Origin: Pontibacter sp. FD36
Lineage (GTDB): Bacteria; Bacteroidota; Bacteroidia; Cytophagales; Hymenobacteraceae
Direction: 5' to 3'
Assembly (NCBI RefSeq): GCF_015686655.1
Contig: NZ_JADPMP010000001.1
Location: 1 to 64,000, forward strand
Length of the DNA stretch: 64,000 bases
Shown here: in pieces, positions 1 to 64,000 of the stretch
Numbering within the stretch: position 1 is the first letter of the stretch
How the letters are laid out: every line of letters starts with the position of its first letter
The notes under the pieces: model-generated
Seen by the model: only the letters and a program-made list of their open reading frames with translations
Database searches by the model: none
Told to the model about the DNA's origin: nothing
Position numbers and translations under genes: made by a program

Positions 1-644
1 GCTACGAGCAAAATAAGCGACCTGCCTTTCTTGTTGAACGTCAGGTAGGCGACCCACTTCAGGTTGGTGCATAGAAACAAGGTATAGAGCGCGATCAGAC
101 CCAGCAGCGGCATGAAGATCAGGCTGCTGTAGTTGAAGTTGAGCAGTGTGAGAAGCAGCGTAGCAAAGAGCAGGATCTCGTACCAGTCCCAGGCGATCTG
201 GATAAACTTGTTCTTATGGTAGAGTATCAACTGTCGCCACACATAGAAAGCCTTTGCCAGGAACAGCACCAGTAAGCCAAAGTTTACCTGATACACCATG
301 TGCAGCAGCAGTGGCGACTGCACGTTGGAATAGTTGGTAACCATGCGGTACACCATATACAAGGCAACACTCAGGTAGGCGGCTATACCTCCTTTGGCAA
401 AGATGTTCCAGAGATAACCGATGAAGTCGATGCCTTTAAGATTGTCAGCACTCATGCGCTGGAAGCCAAAGACAGAAACGATGAAAACGACGATCAGGAA
501 GTTGTTGACAAAAGGCAGATCCAGGCCATTGGAGCTTTCCTGCCGCAAGCTCTCTGCCGCCAACAGCACATTAGCCAGCAGGAGCGACCAGCTGACCAGA
601 GCCGAAGTAATAAATAGAGATTTCGCGTTGGTTCTATAAAGCAT
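1..644 (-). CDS. Polytopic membrane protein, N-terminal part (runs off the left edge)
   Basis: An open frame on the minus strand starts at ATG 644-642 and stays open to base 1, so about 214 N-terminal residues are visible and the C-terminus lies outside the window. The translation begins MLYRTNAKSLFITSALVSW and is strongly hydrophobic, with about six likely membrane segments separated by short loops (for example near residues 8-30, 82-100, 113-135 and 153-195). I cannot name the family. Such N-terminal membrane blocks in Bacteroidota often precede a cytoplasmic signalling domain (phosphatase, kinase or cyclase), but that part is missing, so this is only a possibility. The gene stands alone, downstream of guaB and separated from it by a terminator hairpin. 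Confidence 0.75.
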   Translation of the reverse strand, partial: MLYRTNAKSLFITSALVSWSLLLANVLLAAESLRQESSNGLDLPFVNNFLIVVFIVSVFGFQRMSADNLKGIDFIGYLWNIFAKGGIAAYLSVALYMVYRMVTNYSNVQSPLLLHMVYQVNFGLLVLFLAKAFYVWRQLILYHKNKFIQIAWDWYEILLFATLLLTLLNFNYSSLIFMPLLGLIALYTLFLCTNLKWVAYLTFNKKGRSLILLV

Positions 645-787
645 AAAACGGAAAACCGTGCTTAGTTTTATCGGCGACAGAAAATGGCTTGCCCGAGACT
701 TTATCAGTTTGTAAGGTAAGAAAAATTTTTGCTCTTTGGCCAAGTTGTCGAGGTGAGTTTTTAAAGAACAACTTGCATAACGTAAAA

Positions 788-828
788 AAGAAGAAGTAGG
801 TTAGCAAAAGGCCAACCTACTTCTTTTA
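788..828 (-). terminator. Terminator after guaB, probably bidirectional
   Basis: AAGAAGTAGGTT and its near-perfect complement AACCTACTTCTT form a long stem around a short loop at 791-825. T-runs follow on both strands. It lies 20 bases beyond the guaB stop and ahead of the membrane-protein gene on the same strand, so it separates the two units. Confidence 0.8.
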
Positions 829-847
829 TTGTTGTGTTATGAAATGA

Positions 848-2377
<1,530 letters not shown>

Positions 2378-2529
2378 TTAGCAAGAGCTGCGAGAAAATT
2401 ATTCAAAACCTGCTATACGGCTCCCATCAGAAATATTTTAAATCGTTAATAATTGTTCAGAACTGCTTGCGGGGAAATGCTACAGAAGAAGAAAGAGAAC
2501 GCCTGACTTCAGCAGGTATAGCGCTATAC

Positions 2530-2847
2530 TTAGTACACGCGCATGGTGGGATCTACCTGTGTAGCCCAGGCATGAATGCCGCCTTTTAGATTAAGCAGAT
2601 TGTCGTAGCCGAGGCGCTGGGTGAGGTAGTTGATGGCCTGTGCGCTGCGGAAGCCATGATGGCAAACCATGACCACCGGTATGTCGCGCCGGACGCGGTT
2701 CACCTGCTTGGGCAAGTCCCCTAAAGGGATGAGTTCTCCACCCAGGTTGCATATCTCAAACTCCACAGGCTCACGCACATCTACAATCTGCAGTTCGGCG
2801 CTGCGGCTTAGTCTCTCTTTCAGTTCCTGTGCTGTGATCTCATCCAT
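2530..2847 (-). CDS. Single-domain rhodanese-like protein
   Basis: This is a 105-residue protein consisting of one rhodanese domain. The family transfers sulfane sulfur through a catalytic cysteine. Visible hallmarks are IVDVREPVEFE (residues 21-31) and the active-site loop CHHGFRS beginning at Cys62. The length matches stand-alone GlpE-like proteins. There is no signal peptide, so it is cytoplasmic. It is divergent from the pnuC-type gene with a 106-base gap, and a TAAGTTTG box lies upstream. The physiological sulfur donor and acceptor cannot be told from the sequence. Confidence 0.92.
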   Translation of the reverse strand: MDEITAQELKERLSRSAELQIVDVREPVEFEICNLGGELIPLGDLPKQVNRVRRDIPVVMVCHHGFRSAQAINYLTQRLGYDNLLNLKGGIHAWATQVDPTMRVY

Positions 2848-2905
2848 AATAATAAGGCTCCTGTCTTTGCTATACCTTTAGCTTTGGCGTTTTGGTTTCG
2901 ATTTA

Positions 2906-2913
2906 CAAACTTA
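2906..2913 (-). promoter_or_regulatory. Bacteroidota -7 element for the rhodanese gene
   Basis: Read on the minus strand this is TAAGTTTG, a perfect match to TAnnTTTG, 59 bases upstream of the rhodanese start. A convincing -33 box was not identified. Confidence 0.5.
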
Positions 2914-2953
2914 GCAACAAATTAGCCTAAAACATGGGCTTACACAGGTATAG

Positions 2954-3577
2954 ATGACAGATTTTTACAATAGCATTCTGGAAGGATTACAGGGCATGAG
3001 CCTGATCGAAGTGGTAGGCGTGATCACAGGTATAGCCGGGGTGTGGCTGGCCGCCAAACAGAGTATCTGGACCTGGCCCATCAGTGTGGTGAGTGTGACA
3101 GCTTACGTGTTCATTTTCTACGATGCCCGCCTCTACGCCGACATGGGGCTAAACGCCTTTTACATCATCACGAGTTTTTATGGCTGGTACGAATGGCTTT
3201 ACGGCGGCAAAGGGCATACCGAGCGCAAAGTCACCAACGTTAGGCAACAAGAGTTGTGGGTGTTAATTGCGCTGGTGGTAGCTTTCACAGGCGGCCTGGG
3301 TTATTTTCTTGACAACTATACCGACGCCGATTTGTCCTATACCGACTCGGCCACTACAGCTGTGAGTCTAATGGCCTACTGGCTGATGGCCAAAAAGCGC
3401 CTGGAGAACTGGTTGGTGTGGCTGGCGGTGGATGTGGTGTATGTGGGAGTTTATGCTTATAAGGAGCTATACTTGACAGCTTTTCTGTATTTTATTTTCC
3501 TGATCCTGGCCACAATAGGCTACCTGGACTGGAAACGGGACATGGAAAAGGAAGCTGTAGCTCATGTTACAAAGTGA
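2954..3577 (+). CDS. pnuC: PnuC-family vitamin transporter (nicotinamide riboside or thiamine)
   Basis: A 207-residue integral membrane protein of the PnuC facilitator family, with about seven hydrophobic segments. The signature region SFYGWYEWLYGG (about residues 75-86) carries the WxxW-type aromatic motif of the family, and TWPISVVSVTAYVF is also typical. PnuC imports nicotinamide riboside; the related PnuT proteins, common in Bacteroidota, import thiamine. Both readings fit the context: a NadR-like kinase lies 1 kb downstream, and a TPP-riboswitch-controlled TonB-dependent receptor lies 3.5 kb downstream on the same strand. The family call is strong but the substrate is unresolved. Confidence 0.88.
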   Translation: MTDFYNSILEGLQGMSLIEVVGVITGIAGVWLAAKQSIWTWPISVVSVTAYVFIFYDARLYADMGLNAFYIITSFYGWYEWLYGGKGHTERKVTNVRQQELWVLIALVVAFTGGLGYFLDNYTDADLSYTDSATTAVSLMAYWLMAKKRLENWLVWLAVDVVYVGVYAYKELYLTAFLYFIFLILATIGYLDWKRDMEKEAVAHVTK

Positions 3578-3684
3578 TTGTTAGAAATGTCCTGTTTTAT
3601 GTTTCTATCTTATGCAGTCATGGCATGGTATGTGCCGTACATGAGTGTAGCTGAGGCAATCGTTGAATTTTAGTGCGCCAAAGT

Positions 3685-3900
3685 ATGCGAGTACCTATGT
3701 TCCACGCTACAACGACACTATGTATGAAGAACCACAAGATTGAATTGCCGGACGAACTCAAGTATGAGAACCGTATGAAATGGGGCTACGAGTCTCCAGA
3801 CGAAAGCCCCAAGCGCCTGCTGCTATGCCAGCACGGCGATAGGCACCCCAAAGAGGTGGAGGTGTATAATTTCTATGATTATAGCTTCACTGAGAATTAA
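3685..3900 (+). CDS. Small uncharacterised protein
   Basis: An open frame of 71 codons from ATG 3685, or 58 residues if ATG 3724 is used. The part after MKNHKIELPDELKYEN is hydrophilic and protein-like, with balanced charge and several aromatics (VYNFYDYSF at the C-terminus). I recognise no family. It sits between the pnuC-type gene and a good rho-independent terminator 35 bases past its stop, which supports a real transcript. The exact start is uncertain. Confidence 0.5.
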   Translation: MRVPMFHATTTLCMKNHKIELPDELKYENRMKWGYESPDESPKRLLLCQHGDRHPKEVEVYNFYDYSFTEN

Positions 3901-3935
3901 GTATTTGCCTGTATTAACTGTCCAGGCTGTAGTAT

Positions 3936-3970
3936 AAAAAAAGGATACATAATCTATGTATCCTTTTTTT
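3936..3970 (+). terminator. Rho-independent terminator after the small gene
   Basis: AAAAAAAGGATACAT and ATGTATCCTTTTTTT form a perfect stem around a five-base loop and end in a T-run. The sequence is symmetric and could stop transcription from either side. Confidence 0.85.
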
Positions 3971-4455
3971 ATACTTTGATTGCATCAGATCGTTCTATGG
4001 ATTTGGTTTGTATCGTTGCTTACCCTCCGCATATATCCGCCTACCTACTATGATATGTAGTAAACTATAAATAGCAAAAATCCATCTATTTTTTAAGATC
4101 TAATAGTGTATTAGGTTGAGGTTTAGCTAGTTGGCGGCTAGTTAAAGGGGTGCCGTCTGCAAACTAATATAAAACTGCTCCTACCTCTTCTTGCTTATCC
4201 TATAAGCTATTGGTGAATGCGCTCGTATCGCCAGAATCTGATCTCAAATTAATGAATGCTCAAAATTGTTTAAACCAACCAACTATGTAAAACGCACACT
4301 ACCTGTAATGTTGATTTGTAATTGAGATGGAGAGGTGGATAGTGATAGATTTTAATATAGTCGGTGCATACAAGCTTAATCAGTAAATCAGACAAAACAA
4401 CGGTAATAGTTAAACTACTTAAAAAGGAATAGCAGTAGGAGGCTGTTGAATAAGG
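3971..4455. other. 485-base AT-rich gap with no protein gene
   Basis: I see no convincing ORF, tRNA or known riboswitch here. It lies between two hairpin terminators (3936-3970 and 4456-4497) and is richer in AT than the genes around it. Because the second terminator has no gene in front of it, this gap may hold an untranslated RNA. No structure inside it was recognised. Confidence 0.4.
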
Positions 4456-4497
4456 CTGCCGCCAGTGGGTACTGTACCTGCTGGCGGCAGTTTTTTT
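4456..4497 (+). terminator. Orphan rho-independent terminator
   Basis: CTGCCGCCAG (4456-4465) pairs perfectly with CTGGCGGCAG (4481-4490) and is followed by seven T residues. No coding gene ends within about 550 bases upstream on this strand. It therefore either ends an unannotated RNA or acts ahead of the kinase gene that starts at 4550. Confidence 0.8.
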
Positions 4498-4506
4498 ATG
4501 GCAGGT

Positions 4507-4572
4507 CCTGTGATGGCGACTTTCATCATAATTGCCCTACCTTTGCGGTATGCTGAAAGTCGCCATCACAGG
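4507..4572. repeat. Perfect 19-bp inverted repeat flanking the kinase start codon
   Basis: CCTGTGATGGCGACTTTCA at 4507-4525 is the exact reverse complement of bases 4554-4572. The right arm is coding (codons 2-8 of the kinase), while the left arm is non-coding. The 28-base loop contains the TACCTTTG promoter box and the ATG at 4550. A perfect match this long is not chance. Confidence 0.9.
4538..4545 (+). promoter_or_regulatory. Bacteroidota -7 element at the kinase start
   Basis: TACCTTTG matches TAnnTTTG and ends five bases before ATG 4550, implying a nearly leaderless transcript. No clear -33 box is seen, because the upstream position is occupied by the left arm of the inverted repeat. Confidence 0.5.
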
Positions 4573-5071
4573 GCCTGAGTCTACGGGTAAATCTACGCTG
4601 TCGCAGCAGTTGGCCGCGCACTACAACACAGTGTGGGTGCCGGAGTATGCACGCACCTATATCGAAGATTTGGCTAGGCCCTATACCTTGCAAGACCTTG
4701 AGGAGATCGCCAAAGGGCAATTGGCTTTGGAGGCACAGGTGCAGCAGGAGGCAGGCCGCATTTTGTTCTCTGATACCGACCTGCTGGTGATCAAAATCTG
4801 GAGTGAGCATGCCTTTGGGCAGTGCCCTGACTGGGTGCTTCAAAAACTAAAAGAGCAGGATTATAACCTTTACCTGCTGATGGGCGTTGATTTGCCGTGG
4901 GAGCCTGATCCGCAGCGAGAGCATCCGCATTTGCGCCAGTACTTTTATGATTGGTACAAACGAGAGTTGGAGGCGCTGCAAGTGCCCTATCTGGAGATCA
5001 GCGGACAGCACGAAGACCGGCTCGAAAAGGCAATCGGGCGTGTCGATGCATTGCTCCGGCAACATACCTAA
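4550..5071 (+). CDS. NadR-like P-loop kinase (AAA_28 family)
   Basis: A 173-residue P-loop protein resembling the C-terminal ribosylnicotinamide kinase domain of NadR. The Walker A motif is GPESTGKST at residues 8-16, followed by WVPEYARTYIEDL and FSDTDLLVIKIW, which match the kinase region of NadR. There is no DNA-binding or adenylyltransferase domain. I chose ATG 4550 over an upstream TTG because it starts directly before the P-loop strand and just after a promoter box. The next gene starts 14 bases downstream, so the two form an operon. It probably phosphorylates the vitamin brought in by the PnuC-type carrier, either nicotinamide riboside or thiamine; the choice is inference. Confidence 0.85.
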   Translation: MLKVAITGPESTGKSTLSQQLAAHYNTVWVPEYARTYIEDLARPYTLQDLEEIAKGQLALEAQVQQEAGRILFSDTDLLVIKIWSEHAFGQCPDWVLQKLKEQDYNLYLLMGVDLPWEPDPQREHPHLRQYFYDWYKRELEALQVPYLEISGQHEDRLEKAIGRVDALLRQHT

Positions 5072-5085
5072 ACCTATACCTGACC

Positions 5086-5961
5086 ATGCTATACTATTTG
5101 CAGAATTATAACTTTAAAGTGGGCGTCGAAAGCAAAGGCGCCGAGTTGCAGCATTTCATCAAGTTGGATGAGCAGCTGGAATTTATCTGGCAGGCTGATC
5201 CGGCAATCTGGGGTAGTCACGCACCTAACCTTTTCCCGATTGTGGGGGAACTGCCCGAAGGTACCTATACCTACGAAGATGAGATTTTCGCATTGAAGCG
5301 CCATGGCTTTGCGCGCCACAAGGAGTTTAAACTGATAGAGCAGGAAGATGACAAGTTGGTGTTCGAACTTGATGACGATGAAGAAACCTACCAGGTATAC
5401 CCCTTTAAGTTCAGGCTCCTGATCGCTTATAAGCTGGAGAATAACAAGCTGTCGGTAACATACCAAGTTTTTAACCGCGACAGCAAGGGCATGTACTTTT
5501 CCATTGGCGGCCATCCGGGTTTCAATGTGCCGCTTTACGGTGGGGAACGCTACGAAGACTACTTTATCGAATTTGAGAAAGAGGAAACGCTGCACCGCTA
5601 CCTGCTGACCGATGATGGCCTGCAGAGTGGCGACACAGAAAAGGTATTGGAGCATGATCGGGTATTGCCTCTCAAGCACAGCTATTTTGACAAAGATGCC
5701 CTGGTGTTCAAAAACCTGAATTCTGATAAGCTTTCATTGGGAAGCCGCACCAACCAGCGGCGCATCGAGATGACGTTCGAAGGTTTTCCATACTTGGGCA
5801 TTTGGGCGAAGCCGGGACCATCGCCTTATGTGTGCATCGAGCCCTGGTGCGGTATTGCGGGCCGAGACGGGGAGTCCGGGGAAATCGATAAAAAGGAGGG
5901 CATCAATCTACTTAGTCCCAAGCATGTATTTGAGCGTACTTTTACTTTGGAAGTCTTATAA
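5086..5961 (+). CDS. Aldose 1-epimerase (LacX/GalM-like) family protein
   Basis: A 291-residue protein of the aldose epimerase superfamily, which interconverts sugar anomers. Supporting segments are APNLFPIVGELPEGTYTYE, the RHGFAR motif containing a typical active-site histidine, GGHPGFNVPL, and a late CIEPWCG segment carrying the expected catalytic glutamate. The frame is open further upstream, but ATG 5086 is the first start after the kinase stop (14-base gap) and gives the usual N-terminus LQNYNFKVGVESKGAEL. No signal peptide is seen. The family members closest in look to this are LacX-like and their substrates are poorly defined. Confidence 0.88.
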   Translation: MLYYLQNYNFKVGVESKGAELQHFIKLDEQLEFIWQADPAIWGSHAPNLFPIVGELPEGTYTYEDEIFALKRHGFARHKEFKLIEQEDDKLVFELDDDEETYQVYPFKFRLLIAYKLENNKLSVTYQVFNRDSKGMYFSIGGHPGFNVPLYGGERYEDYFIEFEKEETLHRYLLTDDGLQSGDTEKVLEHDRVLPLKHSYFDKDALVFKNLNSDKLSLGSRTNQRRIEMTFEGFPYLGIWAKPGPSPYVCIEPWCGIAGRDGESGEIDKKEGINLLSPKHVFERTFTLEVL

Positions 5962-5983
5962 TCAAATTGAAAGAACTTCAATC

Positions 5984-6025
5984 AAAAAGTCCCCTGCTGT
6001 ATTTTTCGAGCAGGGGACTTTTTGT
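5984..6025. terminator. Bidirectional terminator between convergent genes
   Basis: AAAAAGTCCCCTGCT (5984-5998) pairs perfectly with AGCAGGGGACTTTTT (6009-6023). The A/T ends provide a T-run on both strands. It serves the epimerase gene on the plus strand and the small minus-strand gene ending at 6028. Confidence 0.9.
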
Positions 6026-6027
6026 TT

Positions 6028-6279
6028 TCATTGCAGGGAAGGTTCCGGAAACTTGGGAACCTTGATGCGTCTCAGGTCATATTGCGGTTCATAATCATTG
6101 ATGGGCAATGATATGCCGGGTGGCAGGTCCAGATCTGGCAGATCGTCGCCTAGTGGCTCGCCTCCATCGTCATCATTATCAGTAGAGGAAGACCCTCTGA
6201 ATTTTTTGCGTGGAGCGAAAGCGTAATATGCCAGTATCGTTAGCAGTGCTAAAGTATACAGTAAGCTGATCATCATCAC
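6028..6279 (-). CDS. Small single-pass membrane protein, unknown
   Basis: An 83-residue frame with one N-terminal hydrophobic segment (residues 3-22, ISLLYTLALLTILAYYAFA), a basic cluster RKKFR that should stay in the cytoplasm, then an acidic Asp/Glu-rich stretch and a proline-rich tail. I recognise no family. Three consecutive ATG codons (6279, 6276, 6273) make the exact start ambiguous. It ends against a bidirectional terminator and is divergent from the TPP-riboswitch gene, an arrangement consistent with a real gene. Confidence 0.6.
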   Translation of the reverse strand: MMMISLLYTLALLTILAYYAFAPRKKFRGSSSTDNDDDGGEPLGDDLPDLDLPPGISLPINDYEPQYDLRRIKVPKFPEPSLQ

Positions 6280-6477
6280 ATTTCTTCTTAAACTCTAAAA
6301 TTGGTTCAGCCGGCCTATTTTCCTGGCAATTCCTACTTGGTATGAGCGGGTGCTTGAAAATGTGCCTTGTATTGTTTTCAACGTAGTTTGCCCGCATGTG
6401 GTTATCGGCTTTTGTTAAAATAAAATTGCACTTAACTACTTGATACAGTGGGTTAGCCATAAATTGCCCTGGTCCGT

Positions 6478-6509
6478 TTTGTTTTCACAGAAAATCAGCC
6501 ATACCTTTA
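6478..6509 (+). promoter_or_regulatory. Promoter of the thiamine receptor gene
   Basis: TTTG at 6478-6481, a 20-base spacer and TACCTTTA at 6502-6509 match the Bacteroidota -33/-7 promoter (TTTG, TAnnTTTG) closely. Transcription would begin about 6515, right where the TPP aptamer starts. Confidence 0.65.
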
Positions 6510-6514
6510 CAGCA

Positions 6515-6595
6515 GTTTAGGGGTGCCTTATAACAACGGGCTGAGATCATACCCATTGAACCTGATCCGGATAATGCCGGCGAAGGGAAAAACGC
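6515..6595 (+). promoter_or_regulatory. TPP riboswitch (THI element)
   Basis: The conserved THI-box blocks are present in order: GGGGTGCC (about 6520-6527), GGGCTGAGA (6538-6546), ACCC, TGAACCTGATCCGGATAAT (6557-6575) and GCCGGCGAAGGGAA (6576-6589). This RNA binds thiamine pyrophosphate and switches off the downstream gene. Between the aptamer and ATG 6669 a short CTGCC/GGCAG hairpin (about 6615-6631) has no T-run, so control of translation looks more likely than termination. Confidence 0.95.
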
Positions 6596-6668
6596 GGGGA
6601 AACAATGTAGCAGGCTGCCGGCCCCAGGCAGGTCTGTATGTTTCAACTTATTCTTTTCTTACACACCA

Positions 6669-9143
6669 ATGAAAAAATTACTGATTGTGATGGCAGTCGT
6701 ACTGTTGCCGTTGCAGTTGCTTGCTCAGTACCAACTGAGCGGCTACGTAACCGATGCTGTCAAAAACGAAGCGCTGGCGGGAGCCACCGTTGTACTGGCT
6801 GGCAGCAACCAAGTCACCGTATCTGGCCAGGATGGCCGTTATCAATTCCAAAACCTGCCCGAAGGCGAGTATACCCTGCAGGTTTCTTATCTGGGCTACA
6901 ACAAAGCCAGCAGACAAATCAGGCTGATCGTCGACACAAGCGTGAACATGGCGCTGCAACCGGCTAGTGTAAGCACTGGTGAAGTGCTCGTGTCGTCTAC
7001 CCGTGCCAACGAGCGAACAGGTACTACTTTCACGAACGTGACGCGCGAAGAGATAGCCGAACGCAACTTCGGTCAGGATCTGCCATACCTGTTGGAGCAA
7101 GTGCCCTCTGTCGTGGTAAACTCTGACGCCGGCGCCGGCGTGGGCTATACCGGTATACGCATTCGTGGCTCCGATATCACGCGCATCAACGTAACCGTGA
7201 ATGGTATACCTGTGAATGACTCCGAAAGCCACGGTACCTTCTTTGTGAATATGCCGGATTTTGCCTCTTCAGTGGAGGACATGCAGGTGCAACGCGGTGT
7301 GGGTACATCCACCAATGGTGCGGGTGCCTTCGGAGCGAGCATTAACATCCAAACCCAAAAGGTGCGCCGTGAGGCCTATGCCGAAACCGACAACAGCTAC
7401 GGTTCTTTTAACACCTGGAAGAACAATGTGCGCTTCGGAACGGGCCTGATCAATGGCAAATTCGCTTTCGATGGCCGTCTGTCACGCATCAAGTCGGATG
7501 GCTACATCGACCGAGCCTTCTCTGATCTGAAATCCATGTACTTCTCGGGTGGCTACTATGGCGATAAGACGACGGTGAAGTTTGTGACTTTCTCGGGCCA
7601 GGAGCAAACCTACCAGGCCTGGTATGGCACACCGGAAGCGTTGGTATACGGCAACGAGGCAGATCTGCAGGCCTATATCGATCGCAACGGCATTACAGGT
7701 AGTGACCTCGAGAATCTGCGCACTGCTGGTCGCCGGTATAACTACTATACCTACGACAACGAAACCGACAACTATCAGCAGGACCACTACCAGTTGCATC
7801 TGTCGCATGACTTCTCGCCGGAGCTGACTTTCTCCGGAGCGCTGCACTATACCTATGGCCGTGGCTACTACGAGCAGTTCCGAAACAACGACCGCCTCTC
7901 CAACTATGGCTTACCCAATGTGCAGATCGGAGATCAGACCATCAGCCGTACCGACCTGATCCGCCGTCGCTGGCTCGACAACCACTTCTTTGGTGCCACT
8001 TATGCCTTCCAGTATGATCCGTCAGCCAGGCTAAGCGCTACACTGGGCGGTGCCGTCAACAGGTACGATGGCGACCACTTCGGTGAGGTGATCTGGGCTC
8101 GCTATGCTTCTACCTCCAACATCCGTGACCGCTACTACGACAACAATGCGGTGAAGACGGATTTCAACATCTTCGGTAAACTCACTTATAGCCTGACGGA
8201 TCAGCTGAGTCTGTTTGGCGACATGCAGGTGCGCACAATCAACTATACCTTCGAGGGTATCGATAACAACTTCGAGAACCTGGAGCAGGAGGTGGATTAT
8301 ACCTTCTACAATCCGAAAGCAGGTATAAGCTACGAACTAAAGCCAGGACATCAACTATACGCCTCTTATGCCATAGGCAATCGCGAGCCGGTTCGCAAAG
8401 ACTTTACCGAGTCTACTGCCGATAGCCGTCCGAAGCACGAGACACTGCGCAACCTGGAAGCCGGCTACCGTGGTCAGCTTGGATTGGGCGAACTGGCAGG
8501 GCGTACATTAAGCGCCAACGTGGAGGTAAATTACTTCTTCATGGATTACAAAAACCAACTGGTGCTGACCGGTGAGATCAATGACGTAGGCGCCTATACC
8601 CGTACGAACATTGATCGCAGTTACCGCCAAGGTATAGAGTTGGCTGGAGCAATGTGCCTGGGTAGCTTTGCGAGTCTGAGCAGCAACCTAAGCTACAGCC
8701 AGAACAAGTTGCGCGACTTCGAAGAATACATCGATGATTACGATGAAGGCGGCCAGGTGATGAACAGGTATAGCCAGGCTTCTATTGCTTTCTCTCCGGA
8801 TTTTGTGTCGGCTACGCAACTGGAGGTAGAAGTGCTGAAAGGTTTGAAAGCTGCTTTTATCTATAAAACAGTAAGCAAGCAGTACCTGGACAATACCCAG
8901 AACGAAAGCCGCATCATACCTGCCTACCAGGTAGGGGATCTGCGTTTCCGCTACACTACTGGTTTCACAGGTGTCCTGAAAGGTCTTGAGCTTGGGCTAC
9001 TGGTGAACAACATCTTCAACGAACGCTATGCTGCCAATGGCTATACCTACAGCTACAAAGCAGGAGGGGAGCTAACAACCGAAAACTTCTATTACCCACA
9101 GGCCACACGCAATTTTCTGGCTTCTGTCGGCTTAAGATTTTAA
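6669..9143 (+). CDS. TonB-dependent outer membrane receptor, TPP-regulated (thiamine uptake)
   Basis: An 824-residue receptor that should carry a substrate across the outer membrane using TonB energy. It has a signal peptide (MKKLLIVMAVVLLPLQLLAQ), a carboxypeptidase-regulatory-like domain (about residues 22-100, ending near NMALQPASVSTGEV), a plug domain (about 115-235, with GVGYTGIRIRGSDITRINV) and a 22-strand-type barrel ending in SVGLRF with the terminal aromatic residue. The TPP riboswitch directly upstream points to thiamine or a derivative, as for the Omr1 receptors of Bacteroidota. It is transcribed alone: a terminator follows, and the pnuC-type gene is 3 kb upstream. Confidence 0.93.
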   Translation: MKKLLIVMAVVLLPLQLLAQYQLSGYVTDAVKNEALAGATVVLAGSNQVTVSGQDGRYQFQNLPEGEYTLQVSYLGYNKASRQIRLIVDTSVNMALQPASVSTGEVLVSSTRANERTGTTFTNVTREEIAERNFGQDLPYLLEQVPSVVVNSDAGAGVGYTGIRIRGSDITRINVTVNGIPVNDSESHGTFFVNMPDFASSVEDMQVQRGVGTSTNGAGAFGASINIQTQKVRREAYAETDNSYGSFNTWKNNVRFGTGLINGKFAFDGRLSRIKSDGYIDRAFSDLKSMYFSGGYYGDKTTVKFVTFSGQEQTYQAWYGTPEALVYGNEADLQAYIDRNGITGSDLENLRTAGRRYNYYTYDNETDNYQQDHYQLHLSHDFSPELTFSGALHYTYGRGYYEQFRNNDRLSNYGLPNVQIGDQTISRTDLIRRRWLDNHFFGATYAFQYDPSARLSATLGGAVNRYDGDHFGEVIWARYASTSNIRDRYYDNNAVKTDFNIFGKLTYSLTDQLSLFGDMQVRTINYTFEGIDNNFENLEQEVDYTFYNPKAGISYELKPGHQLYASYAIGNREPVRKDFTESTADSRPKHETLRNLEAGYRGQLGLGELAGRTLSANVEVNYFFMDYKNQLVLTGEINDVGAYTRTNIDRSYRQGIELAGAMCLGSFASLSSNLSYSQNKLRDFEEYIDDYDEGGQVMNRYSQASIAFSPDFVSATQLEVEVLKGLKAAFIYKTVSKQYLDNTQNESRIIPAYQVGDLRFRYTTGFTGVLKGLELGLLVNNIFNERYAANGYTYSYKAGGELTTENFYYPQATRNFLASVGLRF

Positions 9144-9163
9144 CATAGATTGAGATTTTTTGG

Positions 9164-9638: not shown

Positions 9639-10817
9639 ATGGCCTACGAATCATCAGGAGCTCCTGACTACTATAACATTGACGATTTACTGACCGAGGA
9701 GCATCTCCTCATCCGCCATACCCTGCGTGACTTTGTGAAGAAAGAAATTTCTCCGAACATCGAGCAGTGGGCGCAGGATGCCCATTTCCCATCTGAGATT
9801 GTGAAGAAGTTTGGTGACGTGGGTGCTTTTGGCCCGACTATACCTGCCGAGTACGGTGGCGGCGGACTGGACTACATCAGTTACGGTATCATCATGCAGG
9901 AAATCGAGCGTGGCGACTCCGGTATGCGCTCTACCGCTTCGGTGCAGGGCTCGCTGGTGATGTACCCAATTTATGCCTACGGCTCAGAAGAGCAGCGCAA
10001 AAAGTACCTGCCTAAACTGGCGAGTGGTGAGTGGCTGGGTTGCTTCGGCCTGACCGAGCCTGACCATGGGTCCAACCCGGGCGGTATGACCACCAACATC
10101 AAAGACATGGGCGACCATTACCTGCTCAACGGTGCCAAGATGTGGATATCCAACTCACCGGAGAGCCAAGTGGCAGTAGTATGGGCCAAAAACGAAGAAG
10201 GTCGCATCAAAGGCCTGATCGTGGAGCGAGGTATGGAAGGTTTTTCTACCCCAGAGATTCACAATAAGTGGAGCCTGCGGGCCAGTTGCACCGGCGAACT
10301 GGTATTTGACAACGTGAAAGTCCCGAAAGAGAACCTCTTGCCAAATGTAGAGGGTTTGCGAGGTCCGTTGGGTTGCCTTGACTCTGCCCGTTACGGCATC
10401 GCTTGGGGTGCTATTGGAGTCGCCATTGACTGCTACGAGTCGGCCCGTAAGTATGCGATGGAGCGTATTCAGTTTGACAAACCAATTGGCGCATTCCAGC
10501 TCACACAGAAGAAACTGGCTGAAATGTTGACTGAGATCACGAAGGCTCAGTTGCTGGCCTGGAGGCTCGGTACTCTGAAGAATGAAGGTAAAGCGACCAC
10601 ACAGCAGATCTCGATGGCCAAGCGTAACAATGTGGACATGGCTTTGCAAATCGCACGCGAAGCACGCCAGATCCACGGGGGTATGGGCATTACGGGCGAG
10701 TACCCGATCATGCGCCACATGATGAACCTGGAGTCGGTGATCACTTACGAAGGTACACATGACATTCACCTGCTTATCACAGGGGCGGATATCACAGGTA
10801 TACCGGCATTTAAGTAA
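9639..10817 (+). CDS. gcdH: Acyl-CoA dehydrogenase, glutaryl-CoA dehydrogenase type
   Basis: A 392-residue FAD-dependent acyl-CoA dehydrogenase. Its closest visible subgroup is glutaryl-CoA dehydrogenase, which converts glutaryl-CoA to crotonyl-CoA and CO2 in lysine and tryptophan breakdown. Features include RSTASVQGSLVMYPI, the flavin-binding CFGLTEPDHGSNPG loop, the KMWISNSP motif, ARYGIAWGAIG, and the catalytic glutamate in TYEGTHDIH (about Glu371). An arginine ahead of the SVQ motif (RSTASVQ) is typical of the glutaryl subgroup. It is monocistronic with its own promoter box and terminator. The superfamily is certain; the substrate call is likely. Confidence 0.93.
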   Translation: MAYESSGAPDYYNIDDLLTEEHLLIRHTLRDFVKKEISPNIEQWAQDAHFPSEIVKKFGDVGAFGPTIPAEYGGGGLDYISYGIIMQEIERGDSGMRSTASVQGSLVMYPIYAYGSEEQRKKYLPKLASGEWLGCFGLTEPDHGSNPGGMTTNIKDMGDHYLLNGAKMWISNSPESQVAVVWAKNEEGRIKGLIVERGMEGFSTPEIHNKWSLRASCTGELVFDNVKVPKENLLPNVEGLRGPLGCLDSARYGIAWGAIGVAIDCYESARKYAMERIQFDKPIGAFQLTQKKLAEMLTEITKAQLLAWRLGTLKNEGKATTQQISMAKRNNVDMALQIAREARQIHGGMGITGEYPIMRHMMNLESVITYEGTHDIHLLITGADITGIPAFK

Positions 10818-11034: not shown

Positions 11035-12078
11035 ATGAGAGAAGATTATCTCACCGGTAGCAATGACTACATGTCGCCGGTTGAAAAAGACATTGATAAG
11101 GCGCTTCGTCCGCTGAGCTTTGCCGATTTTACGGGGCAGGCGAAGGTGGTGGAGAACCTCAAAATTTTTGTGCTGGCGGCCAAAAACCGTGGCGAGGCTT
11201 TGGACCACGTGCTTTTGCACGGACCTCCTGGCTTGGGTAAAACTACGCTGTCGCATATCATCGCTTCTGAGCTGGATGCAGGTATAAAAATGACCTCTGG
11301 CCCAGTACTGGATAAGCCGAGCGATCTGGCTGGTTTGCTGACCAACCTCGATGCCAACGATGTATTGTTCATCGACGAGATACACCGCCTCAACCCGATT
11401 GTGGAAGAGTACCTGTACTCAGCGATGGAAGACTACAAGATCGACATCATGCTCGACTCGGGACCTAACGCCCGTTCTGTGCAAATCAGTCTGAACCCCT
11501 TTACGCTGATAGGCGCTACGACGCGTTCAGGTTTGCTCACCTCACCGCTCCGTGCGCGTTTCAGTATCAACTCCCGCTTGGAGTATTATGATGCGGAATT
11601 GCTGACTTCTATTGTGAAGCGTTCTTCAGCCCTGTTGGGAGCGCCTATCCATGATGATGCCGCTTTTGAGATTGCCCGTCGTAGCCGTGGTACACCACGT
11701 ATCGCTAATAACCTGCTGCGCCGTACCCGCGACTTCGCCCAGGTAAAAGGCAACGGTACCATTACCGTAGAGATCGCCAAGTTTGCCCTGAATGCGCTCG
11801 ACGTAGACCACAACGGCCTGGATGATATGGACAACCGTATCCTGAGCACTATTATCGACAAGTTTAAGGGTGGTCCGGTCGGTTTGTCGACCATCGCGAC
11901 GGCTTGTGGCGAAGAGTCTGAAACGATTGAAGAGGTATACGAGCCATTCCTAATCCAGGAAGGTTATATCAAGCGTACCTCACGCGGACGTGAAGCCACA
12001 GAAGCTGCTTACCGCCATCTGGGTAAGATTCCGCCGCAGCAGGTGGTAGCTGGCGGCTTGTTTGATCAAGCTGAATAA
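11035..12078 (+). CDS. ruvB: Holliday junction branch migration ATPase RuvB
   Basis: A 347-residue hexameric motor that, with RuvA and RuvC, drives branch migration of Holliday junctions during recombination and repair. Motifs are Walker [10 protein letters not shown] (residues 63-71), Walker [10 protein letters not shown], sensor region [11 protein letters not shown], and the winged-helix C-terminus with the [11 protein letters not shown] signature. Length and domain order are standard. ruvA and ruvC are not nearby. A TACCTTTA box lies about 10991-10998, and a strong terminator follows. Confidence 0.98.
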
Positions 12079-14077: not shown

Positions 14078-14095
14078 CAGGTATAGCTATACCTG
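14078..14095. repeat. Perfect 18-bp palindrome CAGGTATAGCTATACCTG
   Basis: Two head-to-head copies of the dispersed octamer AGGTATAG. It sits 9 bases after the -7 box of queG and 15 bases before its start codon, so it covers the predicted transcription start. It could serve as an operator or a 5' hairpin. Confidence 0.85.
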
Positions 14096-37941: not shown

Positions 37942-38901
37942 ATGAGAAAACTCAAGTACTGGATTCGACGCAACTTTGGCTTCTCGCAAGGTGAGGTAAA
38001 CGGGTTTCTGGTACTGATAGGGGCAATGGTGCTGCTAACGGCAGCACCATTGCTATTTAAATGGGTTACAAAGTCTGATCCCACCTCTACTGATAGTAGC
38101 CCATCCGACAAGCAGCTGCTTGATAGCCTGGTGGCTCAACTCGAAGCCAAACAGCCAGAGCCGACAGGTAGGGGACAGGTATACCAGTTGCCTGTAACAC
38201 TGCAGCCTTTCAATCCTAATAATCTGACGGAAGCGCAATGGCAGGAACTGGGCATGCCAAAATACATGGTGAAACGCATCCTCAACTTCCGTAACAAAGT
38301 AGGCGACTTCACTTACAAGGCACAGCTCGGGACCATCTACGGCCTACCTGATTCGGTTTTCCAAAAGCTGTACCCTTATATCCAACTCCCCGAAACCAAA
38401 CCTGATAGGTATAGCCGCAACCAAGGTATAGCCGGTAGTCCACGGACTGCGCCCAATCCCAATTGGACCAGTAACCCACGCCCAAGAGAGCGGTTTATCC
38501 TGGCGCCTTTCAACATCAACTCCGCTGATACCACGGCGCTAAAACAGATAAGAGGCATAGGCAGCAAACTGTCGGCAAGGATCGTGAAGTACAGGGATGG
38601 TTTGGGTGGTTTCCACAGTATGGCGCAGGTGCAGGAAGTTTTCGGGCTGCCACCGGCCGTAGTAGACAGCCTGCAGAAGTATACCTTTGTGCCAAAAGCT
38701 TACACCTTGCAGCAGCTGTCACTTAATCAAGCCAATGCAGATCAGTTGAAGGCACATCCTTATATCAGTTCTAATGTGGCGCGAGCGATTGTGGCTTACC
38801 GCGAGCAGCATGGTGCTTTTACATCAGTTGAAGATATTAAAAGAATTAAGATAATAGATCAGGAAATATACCAAAAGGTTAAACCTTATTTAATACTTTA
38901 A
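37942..38901 (+). CDS. ComEA-like helix-hairpin-helix DNA-binding protein, membrane anchored
   Basis: A 319-residue protein with an N-terminal membrane helix (about residues 19-36, VNGFLVLIGAMVLLTAAP) and repeated HhH motifs: MPKYMVKRILNFRNKVGDF, the ComEA-like NINSADTTALKQIRGIGSKL (about residues 193-212) and NVARAIVAYREQHGAF. Such proteins bind double-stranded DNA, in competence or related processes. The last 27 codons or so switch from about 50 percent GC to about 25 percent GC, and a native-looking copy of the same tail lies at 39498-39566. The 3' end therefore appears replaced by incoming DNA. Confidence 0.88.
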   Translation: MRKLKYWIRRNFGFSQGEVNGFLVLIGAMVLLTAAPLLFKWVTKSDPTSTDSSPSDKQLLDSLVAQLEAKQPEPTGRGQVYQLPVTLQPFNPNNLTEAQWQELGMPKYMVKRILNFRNKVGDFTYKAQLGTIYGLPDSVFQKLYPYIQLPETKPDRYSRNQGIAGSPRTAPNPNWTSNPRPRERFILAPFNINSADTTALKQIRGIGSKLSARIVKYRDGLGGFHSMAQVQEVFGLPPAVVDSLQKYTFVPKAYTLQQLSLNQANADQLKAHPYISSNVARAIVAYREQHGAFTSVEDIKRIKIIDQEIYQKVKPYLIL

Positions 38902-42643: not shown

Positions 42644-45600
42644 ATGAAATCCATCCTCAAATGCTATCGCCATCGCCTGCTCAACCTGAGCGCCGGCAAC
42701 AGAGCCCTGCTGCTGTTGCGGCTTTCGCGTGAGCTGCATCTCGATGTTAGCGAGCTGGATTTCATCAACAACAAACCCGCTTTCCATGTGCTGGAGAAGG
42801 TACTCAGTGGCAAAAATGCCGTGCTGGCCCCCTTTGCTGACAGTCGCTACGCTCCTGTGACGCCAGTGAGCCAACGCTTGCGCTACATTCGCCGCAAGGC
42901 TGACATGATCGAAGAAGAGCGTGGAAGCCGGGAGCTATACCTTGGCTGGCCTTTTGTGCATGGCAAGTTTGCCGATGGTACCACCGTGCGCTGCCCGCTG
43001 CTGTTTTTTCCGGTACGGTTGCAGATCAATGGCAAGCAGGAATGGGAGCTTATACCTGATCCGTCGCAGCCGGCACAGTTCAACCAAAGTTTTGTGCTGG
43101 CATACGCGCATTACATGGGTACCCCGTTGGCCGAGCCCTTACTGGAGCTTGATCTGGGCACACTGCCCACGCACCCGCTGGAGTTTCGCACGCAGGTATA
43201 CGAACTACTGAAAGAGAACCAGCTGACAGTGCATGCAGGCCGTGATTTTTTTACTGATAAACTCAAGCCATTCCACGATTTCCGGAAGGCCGACTATGAA
43301 GCTGATCTGAAACCCGGTCAGCTATACCTGGAGCAGGAAGCTGTGCTGGGGCTATACCCGCAGGCTGCCTCTTATCTGCTAAGCGACTACGATGAACTGC
43401 TGCAGCGTGATGGTCTGCAGGAGATGGAAGACCTGTTTGCGGTACCCGATGCAGGTATAGGCCAGTCAGCCACACAAGCGCAGCATACCTTTACCGCTTT
43501 TGCCATGGATGCCTCGCAGGAGGCCGCCTTGCAGCAAGTGAAGTTGGGGCGCTCGCTGGTGGTGCAGGGACCTCCGGGTACGGGCAAGTCGCAACTGATT
43601 TGTAACCTCGTCTCAGACTTCACGGCCCGGGGCAAACGGGTACTGGTGGTGAGCCAGAAACGTGCCGCCCTCGATGTGGTGCACCAACGTTTATCGTCTG
43701 CCGGTCTGGGTCCGTTTGCAGCACTGGTGCACGATATCAACGCCGACCGCAAAAACATCTACCAGCAACTGCTGCTGCAGATAGACCAGCTGGAAGAATA
43801 CAAGAAGCAAAACCACGCCCTCAACAGCATCTATACCGACCGTACTTTCCTGGAAGTGAGTCGTGGCATCAACCAATGCCTGCAAAAGCTGGAGGCTTTC
43901 CGTACAGCCCTGTTCGACAGTAGCCGCTGCGGCTGGTCACCCAAGGAGCTATACCTGCGCAGCAGCCTGCAGCAGCCTCATGTGCAGCTTCCGGAGGTGT
44001 TCAGGCAGTTTACAGCTGATACCATCCATGATTTTTTGCCTCGTCTGCGGGCTTGCCTGCAGCAGGGCATTGTGCTGGAGCAGCCTGGCTTCATCTGGAA
44101 AGAGCGCCACAGTATGCAGGGCTTTGGCTGGCCGCAGCGGCAGGAACTGGAGCGTACCATCGAGGCACTGTCTGAGCAGTACCGTGCCCTGCGGCAAGGT
44201 ATAAGCCAACTCAGCGGTTCTGACTTTGAACTGAGCAACCTGGAGCGCTACCGAAGCGCCTACGACACCTTAGACGAACTGCAGCACATGCTCGAGCAAG
44301 AAGGTGTGCCCGAAGTGCTGCAACCCCTGCTGCGCAAACAGGCCAAAGCATCAGAATTGAAAAAACTGGTTCGTCAGCTCAAAGGGCTATACCTGGTGTG
44401 CCCCGCTCCGGACGCAGCCATACCGGTCGAGCAGCTGACGCTGGTGAAATCGGCCATCTCAGCTTATGAGGCGCAGCAGAAAGATTTCCTGAAAGGTATA
44501 GGCTGGTTTTTCTCACAGGATAAAAAAGTGCTGCAGCAGGCATTAGGCAAATACAAGTTTGACCTGACCCCTAAGGGGGTAGGCGAACTGCAGCGGCGCA
44601 TCGAACTGCGGGAGCAGGCTCAGGAGCTGATCAAAGCCATCAACAAGAGCATTGGCTATACCCTGCGACTGGAAGACAACCCGACACCGATGCTGCAAAA
44701 ACTGGAGGTAGCGGAGCAGGCTCTGGAGGCGCACCAGTTGCTCAGGCAGCTGCATCGGGAGCGTGTGCTGCACGAAAAGATGTGGCTGGAGACAAACCTG
44801 TCAGGGCACTTGCAAGCCCTGGCACAGGCACTGCAGGTGTTTGAACAGCGCTACGGGCAGTGGGAGCAGTGGCTCCCTAAAACACAGATAGAGAAGCTGA
44901 CAGAACAGGAAGGTTACAGCAAGCTGATGCTGGACGCTCTGCAACAGTATTTCGATCAAATAGTAGCTTACGACGAGCTGAATAGTACACTGACTTTAGC
45001 CCAACGGGAGGTATGCCACCAGGTGCTGCACGAAGGTATAGCCACTGCACAAGATGGAGAAGTACTGTTCCTGAACAGTCTGTACCTGGCCTGGCTGCAC
45101 GAGCTCGAAAGCCAGAAGCCTGAACTTCGCATGCCTGACAGTGGCGAGCTAGACCGTGTAGAAACAGAACTGCAAAGCCTCCTGCAGCAAAAGCAGGACC
45201 TGAGTCAGGAAATCGTATTGTCGCGACTACGCGAGCAGACCTACCGGCACATGGAGTATAACCGGCTGGGTAATGCCGTGACCTATCGCCGCCTACATGC
45301 CCAGGTCAGCAAAAAACGCAGCCTGTATCCGATCCGCAAACTGTTCGAACTGTTCAGTGAGGAGATCCTGAACCTGGCACCATGCTGGCTGGCATCGCCC
45401 GAAACAGTATCGGCTGTTTTTCCGCTGGAGCGCTGCTTTGACCTGGTGATCTTTGACGAGGCCAGCCAATGCTTTGCTGAGACAGGTATACCGGCCATGC
45501 TGCGTGGGCAGCAGGTGGTAGTGGCCGGCGATGAGCAGCAGTTGCGACCATCAGACCTGTACCGCTCACGCTGGGGCGGCAATGGTGACGAAGAACCGGA

Positions 45601-56501: not shown

Positions 56502-56509
56502 GCTATAAA

Positions 56510-56546
56510 AAAACAGGAAGTCAGCATGACACTAACTTCCTGTTCC
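56510..56546. terminator. Bidirectional terminator
   Basis: AACAGGAAGT (56512-56521) pairs with ACTTCCTGTT (56535-56544). A run of seven T residues is on the minus strand, serving the alcohol dehydrogenase gene, with a weaker one on the plus strand. Confidence 0.82.
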
Positions 56547-56566
56547 TGCTTTTGTATTAGTCCCTT

Positions 56567-57730: not shown

Positions 57731-57893
57731 AGTTTATTTAGTAAATGTGTTACAAGTGTTGTGTAGCCGTTTGTACTTTACAGTACTCAAGTTTAACGGT
57801 TAGCTGTTGCAGTGGGTTTTTTCAGGTATGAGTCTGCTACCTATCTGATGCGTGTGCCGTATAGTCTTGCAAGTTGTATCTTGGGCCAAAAAA

Positions 57894-58769: not shown

Positions 58770-58856
58770 TAAGTATGGCTATCCCCTTTAATCTGGCTAA
58801 TTTGCATCTGATTTTTCACTGATAGGGGTTTCAAAGCTCTTTCAAAACAAAACGAT

Positions 58857-61416: not shown

Positions 61417-61426
61417 GCCTGTGTTA

Positions 61427-63562
61427 TCAAGCTGTTCTGGAATTGATGTTGTCGTTCGGATCAGCAGAAGCATCGTTTTGGATCGGGGTTCCAGGCACAC
61501 TTCCCTGTCCGTTCTGTTCAGGGTGCTCTGTCTGTCCTACTTCGATCGGATGCTGCTCCTGGTTCACTTCGCTCTTCGTTTTGCTGCGGTCCGTACCGGC
61601 AGTGTGTGCCTGGTAGGTAGTCAGCGCATCAAAAGGACGCTTACCAACCAAACGTTCCAAGTCGCTCTGGAACAGGATCTCTTTCTGCAATAGCTCCTGT
61701 GCTACTATTTCCAGTTCTCTTGCCTTATCCGTCAGCAGTTGCTTGGTGCGGATATAAGCTGACTCGATGATGTTGCGCACTTCGTTGTCAATTGTTTCGG
61801 CAGTTGCCTCAGAGTATGGTTTGTTGAAAGCCATATCTGTCTGCTTCGAATCGTAGAACGACACGTTGCCTATCTTCGAGTTCATGCCATACATCGTCAC
61901 GATGCTGTAGGCCATCTTGGTGATACGCTCCAGGTCACTCAGGGCGCCTGTCGAGATCTTGCCAAATACCAGCTCTTCAGCGGCACGTCCACCCAGGGCC
62001 ATGCACATCTCGTCGATCAACTGTTCAGTGGTATACAGGAACTGCTCTTTTGGCAAGTACTGTGCATATCCCAATGCGGCTACACCACGTGGAACAATAC
62101 TCACTTTCACCAACGGATCGGCGTGCTCCAGGAACCAGCCTGCAATTGCGTGACCGGCTTCGTGGTAAGCAACAATCTTCTTCTCTTCAGGAGAGATGAT
62201 TTTGTTCTTCTTCTCCAAACCACCGATCACGCGGTCGATGGCATCGTTGAAGTCTGCCTGGTCAACTGCTTTTTTGTTGCGACGGGCGGCAATCAAAGCA
62301 GCCTCGTTACACACGTTGGCAATTTCGGCACCGGCAAAACCAGGTGTCTGGGCTGCCAGCTTACGGGCATCTACATCAGCAGACAGGGTAAGCGGCTTCA
62401 AGTGTACATCAAAGATCTCGGTACGGCCGTTGATATCCGGCTTGTCAATGCTGATCTGACGGTCAAAACGTCCCGGACGAAGCAGGGCCGAGTCCAGAGT
62501 GTCTGGGCGGTTGGTCGCTGCCAGGATAATTACACCTGAGTCAGTCGCAAAACCATCCATCTCAACCAGCAGGGAGTTCAGCGTATTCTCACGTTCGTCG
62601 TTGCCACCTGGTGTAGCGCCACGGCTACGGTGACGGCCAATGGCGTCAATCTCGTCAATGAAGATGATACATGGTGCTTTGGCTTTGGCCTGCTTGAACA
62701 GGTCACGCACACGGGCTGCACCCACACCTACGAACATTTCCACAAAGTCAGAACCTGACAGCGAGAAGAACGGCACGTCGGCTTCACCAGCCACCGCCTT
62801 CGCAAGCAATGTTTTACCTGTACCAGGAGGGCCTACCAATAGGGCACCTTTCGGGATCTTACCACCCAGGATCGTGAATTTGCTTGGATTCTTAAGGAAC
62901 TCCACGATCTCTTGAATCTCTTCTTTCGCCTCTTCCAGGCCTGCCACGTCCTTAAACGTGATCTTTACCTTGTTTTCAGCGTCAAACAGCGCGGCTTTGG
63001 ACTTGCCGATGTTGAAGATCTGACCACCTGCGCCACCCGCTGTTACACGGCGCATCAGGAACCAGAAACCGAACAGCAACAGGATCAGGAAGCCCCATTG
63101 GAAGAAGAAGTCGGCAAAGCCGGTACGTGTCTCAATGGTATAAGGCACACGGTTCTCGCGCGGGATGTTAGCCTGCAGCTTTTCGTAATCTTCCTTGAAA
63201 GACTCTGCTGTGATGATAGTGAAGTGGTAATGCGGACCCTGGTCCATGCTGCCCAAAGTGCCACGACTGGACAGCTCACGGCTGTACTTTTCGTTCTGCA
63301 GGGCATCTTCCTTCAGGTATACCTCTACGACTTTGCCGTTCACGATGGTCAGTTTATTCACATCGTTGCTCAGCAGCATCTCCTCAAAGTTCTGCTGGGT
63401 GGTTTCTACAGAGGCGTTGCTCTTGTTGAGCCAGGTGAGTCCGAAAATAAGCAGGATTAGTACCGCCAGCATCCACAGCTGCATTGTAGGCCGTGGAGGG
63501 GTTGGAGGTATCATCGGCTTCTTCTTCTTATTGTTATTTCCTTTATTATTCTTTTCAGCCAT
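61427..63562 (-). CDS. ftsH: Membrane-bound ATP-dependent zinc protease FtsH
   Basis: A 711-residue AAA+ protease that degrades membrane and unstable cytoplasmic proteins. Two N-terminal membrane helices (about residues 28-45 and 151-170) flank a periplasmic domain. Walker A is [12 protein letters not shown] (residues 244-255), Walker B is [11 protein letters not shown], the second region of homology is [20 protein letters not shown], and the zinc motif is HEAGH. The C-terminal tail is polar and disordered. It lies 71 bases after rsfS on the same strand. Identification is certain. Confidence 0.98.
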
Positions 63563-63633
63563 GAATATGTTGTTTCAGGATACATGAAATACAGAGAGCT
63601 GCCCGGTTTTGTTTTAGGGAGCCCCTGCTAAGC

Positions 63634-64000
63634 TTAGGCATCTTCAATACGGCGGATGCCTGCGTCGCCCCACAGCTCTTCTAAAGCGTAAAACTCACGT
63701 TTGTCTTTCAGAAATACATGCACTACCACGTCCACGTAATCAAGCAGGACCCACTCTTTGTTGGTGCGTCCCTCACTTTGCCACGGGTTCTGGCGTGTTG
63801 CTTTGTATATTTCTTCTTCGATAGACGATGCAATAGCGTCCAGCTGTGTGTCTGATGAAGCAGATGCGATTACAAAGTAATCAGATACGGCATTTTTGAG
63901 TGACTTCAGGTTAAGAACGACGATATCGCTCGCTTTCTTTTCCTGCATGCCTTTTACTACAAGCTCTGCCAATATGTCTGAATTGGCCTCAGCCTTGGTT
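63634..64000 (-). CDS. rsfS: Ribosomal silencing factor RsfS (Iojap), N-terminus cut by the window
   Basis: About 121 residues are visible. The frame stays open through base 64000 (TKAEANSDILAELVV... before the conserved core), so the start codon lies just beyond the right edge; a TTG at 63972 would be too late. RsfS binds L14 and blocks subunit joining when nutrients run low. Hallmarks are DYFVIASASSDTQLDAI, WVLLDYVDVVVHVF and REFYALEELWGDA. It heads the visible run rsfS-ftsH-LUD-lpxH. Confidence 0.95.
   Translation of the reverse strand, partial: TKAEANSDILAELVVKGMQEKKASDIVVLNLKSLKNAVSDYFVIASASSDTQLDAIASSIEEEIYKATRQNPWQSEGRTNKEWVLLDYVDVVVHVFLKDKREFYALEELWGDAGIRRIEDA

Follow-up and report, generated by a model that had tools for sequence, protein, structure and literature searches.

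A highly iterated octamer of Pontibacter sp. FD36 and its dialects: a candidate DNA-uptake-sequence-like signal in Bacteroidota

The octamer AGGTATAG (read as CTATACCT on the opposite strand) is scattered through the genome of Pontibacter sp. FD36 (Bacteroidota, Hymenobacteraceae), including the window, the 64,000-nucleotide stretch analysed here as a whole (positions 1 to 64,000 of contig NZ_JADPMP010000001.1). We propose that this word is the lineage's spelling of a genus-wide signal resembling DNA uptake sequences (DUS) and spread by transformation drive, a candidate function that, judged from the comparison of related genomes, we regard as evenly poised between right and wrong. Other members of the genus iterate AAGTATAA or AACTATAG, and we refer to the three words as dialects I, II and III, respectively. 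The dialects share inner letters, their copies are conserved, sites are respelled in place and the word is repeatedly absent; taken together, these properties match DUS better than they match methylation words of the highly iterated palindrome (HIP) type, Chi or a nucleoid-protein site.

To our knowledge, the uptake sequences described so far belong to two families of proteobacteria and go together with type IV pili, and this would be, if true, the first such system outside Neisseriaceae and Pasteurellaceae. It would then provide a third independent case, with dialects, wordless relatives and likely natural competence knock-outs (genomes G021 and G008), in which the causes and the mechanism of the spread of such words could be tested comparatively. 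Clues to the way in which Bacteroidota select incoming DNA would follow as well, and barriers to gene exchange between species of the group would be predicted. An earlier note on this DNA knew of no description of the word in Bacteroidota; in agreement with it, we found no description of AGGTATAG or of any uptake word in Hymenobacteraceae in the open-licence PMC literature.

Abundance of the word in Pontibacter sp. FD36

The window holds 72 exact copies of the word, about one per 0.9 kb. This confirms the count by eye of about 70 in the earlier note, which had put the chance expectation at about two: dinucleotide shuffles gave a mean of 1.57 and at most 6 copies (100 shuffles), and the Markov expectations were 2.6 (order 2) and 6.8 (order 3). 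The order-6 Markov expectation of 63.8 is uninformative, because AGGTATAG itself enriches its own sub-words. In the whole genome (4.84 Mb) there are 4064 copies, 2021 forward and 2043 reverse, while the reversed word used as a control occurs 117 times (67 and 50). Thus the word is iterated far above chance, genome-wide and on both strands, as are DUS and uptake signal sequences (USS), and the density and size of the word, an octamer equally distributed between strands, are similar to those of known uptake sequences.

The excess is not a product of codon usage, as the earlier note had argued. In a sample of 284 kb from strain FD36 with 226 called genes, 190 gene-internal copies were seen, and codon-preserving shuffles of these genes, in which synonymous codons change places, gave a mean of 8.75 (60 shuffles, standard deviation 2.7, maximum 17). 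The count close to expectation that the note had named as refuting was thus not obtained in this sample. The four readings that the note had given as examples agree with the sequence (Gly-Ile at 3028, Leu-Tyr at 43949, Tyr-Thr at 7745 and Ile-Pro at 9838). Several frames are indeed used; its statement that all of them occur has to be restricted, since hardly any copies stand in the frame in which the coding strand would read TAG in phase: it holds 2 of the 340 copies inside genes in the DNA sampled from 12 dialect-I genomes. In the same DNA, positions 4-5 of AGGTATAG tolerate almost no change, the last letter may vary (AGGTATAA, 185 against 23 expected; AGGTATAC, 214 against 29) and C is favoured on both flanks.

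Dialects across the genus

The comparison covered 50 Pontibacter genomes including strain FD36 itself. The samples used to call dialects measured 20-40 kb (284 kb in the case of FD36), half or more of each coming from the ruvB region; AGGTATAG and AAGTATAA were counted in whole genomes, and the figures for AACTATAG come from the 20-40 kb samples. Twelve genomes speak dialect I, with 2823-5222 copies of AGGTATAG against 173-833 in the remaining 38. Dialect II comprises 23 genomes, with 2125-7030 copies of AAGTATAA and at most 1201 in the rest; AAGTATAA is the top octamer in 20 of them, and the other three carry both AAGTATAA and AACTATAG. In four genomes AACTATAG is the top octamer (dialect III). 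Nine genomes are wordless, with no such word among their top four octamers, and two are atypical, G036 being weakly AGGTATAG-like and G069 rich in TATA-containing words.

On a tree of five proteins the dialect labels need 9 changes, as opposed to 26.6 when shuffled. Dialect I forms one clade (support 100/100), and the AACTATAG and mixed genomes form a clade of seven (support 100/99). Genomes with AAGTATAA occur to either side of the midpoint, and four changes are required for the wordless label. Wordless genomes are larger (mean 5.8 Mb, n = 9, versus 4.6 Mb in the 39 with a clear word; p = 1.4e-5, a value uncorrected for kinship). Some of them keep a surplus of AAGTATAA, for instance G006 with 1201 copies versus 252 of the reversed word, as expected if an older dialect was lost there.

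Dialects that follow phylogeny and share inner letters are a trait of DUS. According to the portion of the Neisseriaceae study considered here (PMC3630211), those bacteria also have thousands of short words, dialects following phylogeny with shared inner letters, and wordless relatives. The Pontibacter word differs in its phylum, in being an octamer, in the letters that are shared and in that no type IV pilus motor was found with it, and its function is putative.

Two peculiarities of the sample are worth recording. G069 (L017, L143) has an excess of TATATATA and of GCTATATA-type words, with 46 TATATATA over both strands in 40 kb, which may be a further dialect or simple repeats. The dialect-II genome G019 has on its contig C1, at about 1944098-1946633, some 40 copies of AGGTATAG in a row, evenly spaced at 64-69 bp, which look like an array of clustered regularly interspaced short palindromic repeats (CRISPR) with the word inside the repeat.

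Conservation and respelling of the sites

Copies of the word are conserved well beyond ordinary octamers; the genome pairs in these comparisons and in those on respelling share history and are thus not independent. When the copies in positions 1-22500 of the window were aligned to the 11 other dialect-I genomes, 44-83% were identical against 16-56% of ordinary octamers. In G063, 15 of 18 copies were kept (ordinary octamers 0.29), in G008 13 of 18 (0.28) and in the nearest genome, G067, 13 of 19 (0.56). Within dialect II, 31-64% of the words were kept as opposed to 17-30% of controls (12 genomes). Retention of AGGTATAG did not exceed control in genomes of other dialects, and in eight wordless genomes (G006 left out) it was found at 11 of 100 aligned sites, close to the control of 0.09-0.12.

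Where genomes of different dialects are compared, a site that holds the word in one of them frequently holds the other dialect's word in the second. Between five dialect-I and 13 dialect-II genomes, 158 of 742 dialect-I sites bear the dialect-II word, where a substitution matrix predicts 15.5. The corresponding figures are 12 of 205 (0.5 expected) from I to III, 54 of 321 (4.3) from II to III and 22 of 328 (1.1) from II to I. Ten genomes of no dialect, the nine wordless ones and G069, served as comparison: 16 of 507 dialect-I sites bear the dialect-II word in them (13.2 expected), and dialect-III words stand at none of 462 sites (5.2 expected). The presence of the other dialect's word at the same places suggests that one reading rule was respelled while many sites stayed.

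Placement of the copies

Words are denser between than within called genes, with 1.77 versus 0.83 per kb in dialect I, 2.98 versus 0.76 in dialect II and 4.36 versus 0.95 in dialect III together with two mixed genomes; the presence of intergenic copies had already been pointed out in the earlier note. Since the genes were called with a simple picker of open reading frames (ORFs), part of this excess may be due to missed genes. The gaps between convergent genes are densest in dialects I (3.99 per kb) and III (8.63 per kb), and tandem gaps in dialect II (3.84 per kb). Inside genes, dialect-I words run opposite to the gene in 217 cases and along it in 123, and decile positions within called genes revealed no clear bias to gene ends. 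Scattering in and between genes, with one orientation commoner in genes, is shared with the USS of Pasteurellaceae, as far as the excerpts drawn upon describe them (PMC2346458, PMC1626085, PMC12616744). Unlike USS, the Pontibacter words lack a clear gene-end bias and no pilin system was found with them (no search aimed at pilins was made).

Head-to-head pairs of the word on the plus and minus strands are in excess: the 512 dialect-I sites include 10 of them at distance 8, and of AACTATAG there are 50 pairs at distance 2, each forming AACTATAGTT (dialect III and two mixed genomes). The earlier note had seen no obvious strand bias, and indeed none along replication was detected in strain FD36 (chi-square 9.4, 14 degrees of freedom, p = 0.80). 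When 20-kb segments were assigned to a strand class solely by their local GC skew, the sites of dialect I were slightly commoner on the C-rich strand (277 of 509, as opposed to 232 on the G-rich strand; p = 0.05), and dialects II (447 of 759; p = 1e-6) and III (122 of 201; p = 0.003) lean to the G-rich one. A mobile-looking stretch of 20 kb in the same genome (L155; contig C6, 1-20000), with genes for mercury transport including MerT, ArdC antirestriction, a resolvase, NikA-like mobilisation and a methylase, has a single copy of AGGTATAG, against 0.56 expected. Of the two properties that DUS and USS combine, conservation in shared genes and rarity in newly acquired DNA, the first was seen, and for the second a low density was observed in this one 20-kb stretch. 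The features of the window are collected in Table 1.

Table 1. Location of the word copies and of the genes mentioned, in window coordinates
Feature	Position	Strand	Remark
Scattered copies of AGGTATAG / CTATACCT	1..64000	33 +, 39 -	72 copies, in and between genes
AGGTATAG copy in nicotinamide mononucleotide (NMN) transporter gene (2954-3577)	3028..3035	+	Read Gly-Ile
ruvB	11035..12078	+	Anchor gene for the same region in 49 other Pontibacter genomes
Head-to-head pair AGGTATAG CTATACCT	14079..14094	.	16-bp perfect palindrome between divergent ORFs
Gene for ComEA-like protein	37942..38901	+	319 amino acids; membrane segment at the N terminus (by eye), three HHH_3 stretches; candidate DNA-uptake part; two AGGTATAG copies inside
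Two AGGTATAG copies in the ComEA-like gene	38407..38431	+	Starts 17 bp apart

Alternative explanations

The main rival is a cause of the HIP kind, in which a DNA methyltransferase or a mark-guided repair system recognises the core of the word and keeps its copies, the dialects following changes of methyltransferase. Cyanobacterial HIP1 is likewise a dense and highly iterated octamer with lineage-specific variants, low in some close relatives and accompanied by methyltransferases, at least in the sections used of Elhai 2015 (PMC4390886), and the earlier note was apt in naming both it and uptake sequences as parallels. Moreover, some of the words are palindromic or extend to palindromes: ACCTAGGT is a palindrome, AACTATAG often extends to AACTATAGTT, and AGGTACCT belongs to the same set. 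Yet HIPs, as the same parts of that source present them, are palindromes tied to methyltransferases, whereas none of the main words, AGGTATAG, AAGTATAA and ACCTAGGG, is a palindrome. In addition, the three dialects have inner letters in common and replace one another in place, which suggests a single reader undergoing gradual change and not a set of unrelated enzymes. For these reasons we consider a HIP-like origin unlikely, though it deserves attention. Selection at each site for binding of an abundant nucleoid or chromosome-organising protein seems to us improbable. It agrees with the conservation of the copies and their density between genes, highest in convergent gaps in dialects I and III; but it would have to respell thousands of selected sites genome-wide for each dialect and permit their loss in several lineages, and the copies are not regularly spaced, the counts per 5 kb in strain FD36 being over-dispersed (mean 4.4, variance 8.8).

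Recombination hotspots of the Chi type, read by AddAB or RecBCD, also differ between taxa, and an octamer in genome-wide excess, leaning to the G-rich strand in dialects II and III, would be compatible with one. Chi would be strongly and consistently oriented, and such orientation along replication was not seen with the GC-skew classes: strain FD36 has no strand bias and dialect I leans the opposite way to the other two, whose own lean may merely reflect purine-rich letters. This makes a Chi-like role quite improbable. A pure mutational bias towards the word, with no reader at all, could account for the enrichment of the near-miss words AGGTATAA and AGGTATAC; the context is 8 bp long and specific to lineages, and the word has not accumulated in the mobile-looking stretch of strain FD36; we give this explanation hardly any credence. 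The roles that the earlier note had left side by side can now be ordered in part: an uptake-like drive is favoured by the dialects, the respelling, the wordless lineages and the low-count mobile stretch, while a cause linked to methylation or to a binding protein keeps some share of the probability.

Proposed route of uptake and competence genes

If the word is an uptake signal, Pontibacter cells would take in DNA by natural transformation with a preference for fragments bearing the local word, and preferred uptake followed by recombination would raise the number of copies in the core genome. A shift in the preference of the receptor would cause old sites to be rewritten, and its loss would let them decay. 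DNA would pass the outer membrane by a Bacteroidota-type route, probably through a pilus-independent receptor and not a type IV pilus; it would then be handed to a ComEA-like HHH protein, such as the one encoded in the window, and further to ComEC and DprA.

The competence genes that accompany DUS and USS are present. Both comEC and dprA were found in all 50 Pontibacter genomes, and a tandem-HHH ComEA-like protein of about 304-346 amino acids in 50 of 50 among the places listed, wordless genomes included. According to the part consulted of PMC8459023, Riemerella anatipestifer cannot be transformed without ComEC, DprA and an HHH protein, next to which unfamiliar envelope proteins are needed; the former three have counterparts in Pontibacter, where no equivalent of the Riemerella outer-membrane pair was identified. 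Riemerella columbina prefers its own DNA, so that selective uptake exists in the phylum, and the same k-mer study of iterated words in Riemerella and Flavobacterium left the role of those words open, judging from the extracts relied on (PMC7965970). In G021 there are stop codons in comEC, dprA and the ComEA-like gene, and in G008 in comEC and dprA, while of seven other genes checked all 7 are stop-free in G021 and 6 in G008. It is as if one pathway were decaying together, and these stops are likely natural losses of competence.

Several observations weigh against an uptake signal. The genes comEC, dprA and tandem-HHH are open in all nine wordless genomes, and therefore these genes alone cannot explain where the word occurs. 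G021 shows no faster loss of the word (retention ratio 2.21, within a range of 1.53-2.53 over 12 genomes). The type IV pilus that serves DUS and USS, with its minor pilin reading the word, was not seen: in the 50 genomes the matches to PF00437, the pilus motor, were short, weak and partial, with 3 of 50 barely over the cut-off (the pilins themselves were not searched). A word-reading protein was not found among the comEC surroundings, the DUF5689 proteins and the ComEA-like protein, the last being rejected because 19 sequences compared gave no pattern linked to dialect (of the 21 extracted, those of G069, which came in a wrong frame, and G026 did not enter the group means). Furthermore, in the ten no-dialect genomes dialect-II sites bear the dialect-I word at 6 of 462 places (1.3 expected), and dialect-II words are kept slightly above control in two wordless genomes, G006 (14 of 75, control 0.106) and G027 (12 of 71, control 0.132), and at or below control in the other seven. 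Finally, the low density of the word in mobile DNA is known from one 20-kb stretch alone.

No conserved outer-membrane partner appeared near comEC in nine genomes, compared from the ORFs of strain FD36 only. DUF5689 proteins were considered as readers on account of the Riemerella gene RA0C_RS04920. They occur in 22 of 50 genomes, as a type of 413-450 amino acids in 12, all word-bearing, and as one of 1099-1299 amino acids in 10. The shorter type adjoins SusC- and SusD-size proteins in the four loci examined (in L170 and in L181, 8633-9862, the DUF5689 gene is followed by genes of these sizes), which makes it look like part of nutrient-uptake operons, and these proteins were rejected.

Words beyond the genus

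In 45 listed genomes of other genera of the family, AGGTATAG has 41-212 copies, no more than about 2.6 times the count of the reversed word used as control. Other words are iterated instead in some relatives. Of 20 other family genomes sampled over 20 kb each, two, G074 and G083, had 16 and 17 copies of ACCTAGGG (L243, L252), and six further 10-kb family samples held nothing comparable. Counted with the palindromic form on both strands, ACCTAGGG/T (ACCTAGGK) reaches 3256-7420 in eight of 150 family genomes outside Pontibacter, three of genus code g25 and five of g26; a ninth genome has 389, and all others have 3-198. In a survey of 77 named non-Pontibacter records from a RuvB scan, ACCTAGGT stands at 17 sites in the 21 kb from Hymenobacter cavernae (L027); in Rhabdobacter roseus (L041) there are 21 sites of AAGTACCT, together with AGGTACCT.

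All strong words fit the frame A-N-S-T-A, and T-A at positions 4-5 are among the least tolerant letters in each. The shared frame is only suggestive, because the alignment was chosen by the analyst. The intolerant T-A recalls the CTG core of the Neisseriaceae DUS dialects, as given in the portion of PMC3630211 referred to above. We tentatively consider, with somewhat less than even confidence, a wider self-DNA recognition in Bacteroidota that is independent of type IV pili, comprising at least five dialects in this frame in Pontibacter and two further genera of the family, perhaps also in Rhabdobacter, with a candidate reader of a new class.

In the other 75 named records, a top word above z 12 occurred in L075 alone and was a local tandem repeat. 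Two moderate dispersed words stand outside the A-N-S-T-A frame, AAACCGCC in Larkinella rosea (L031; 18 copies against 3.1 expected in 21 kb) and TTCTAAAA in L080 (19 against 3.4 expected in 21 kb).

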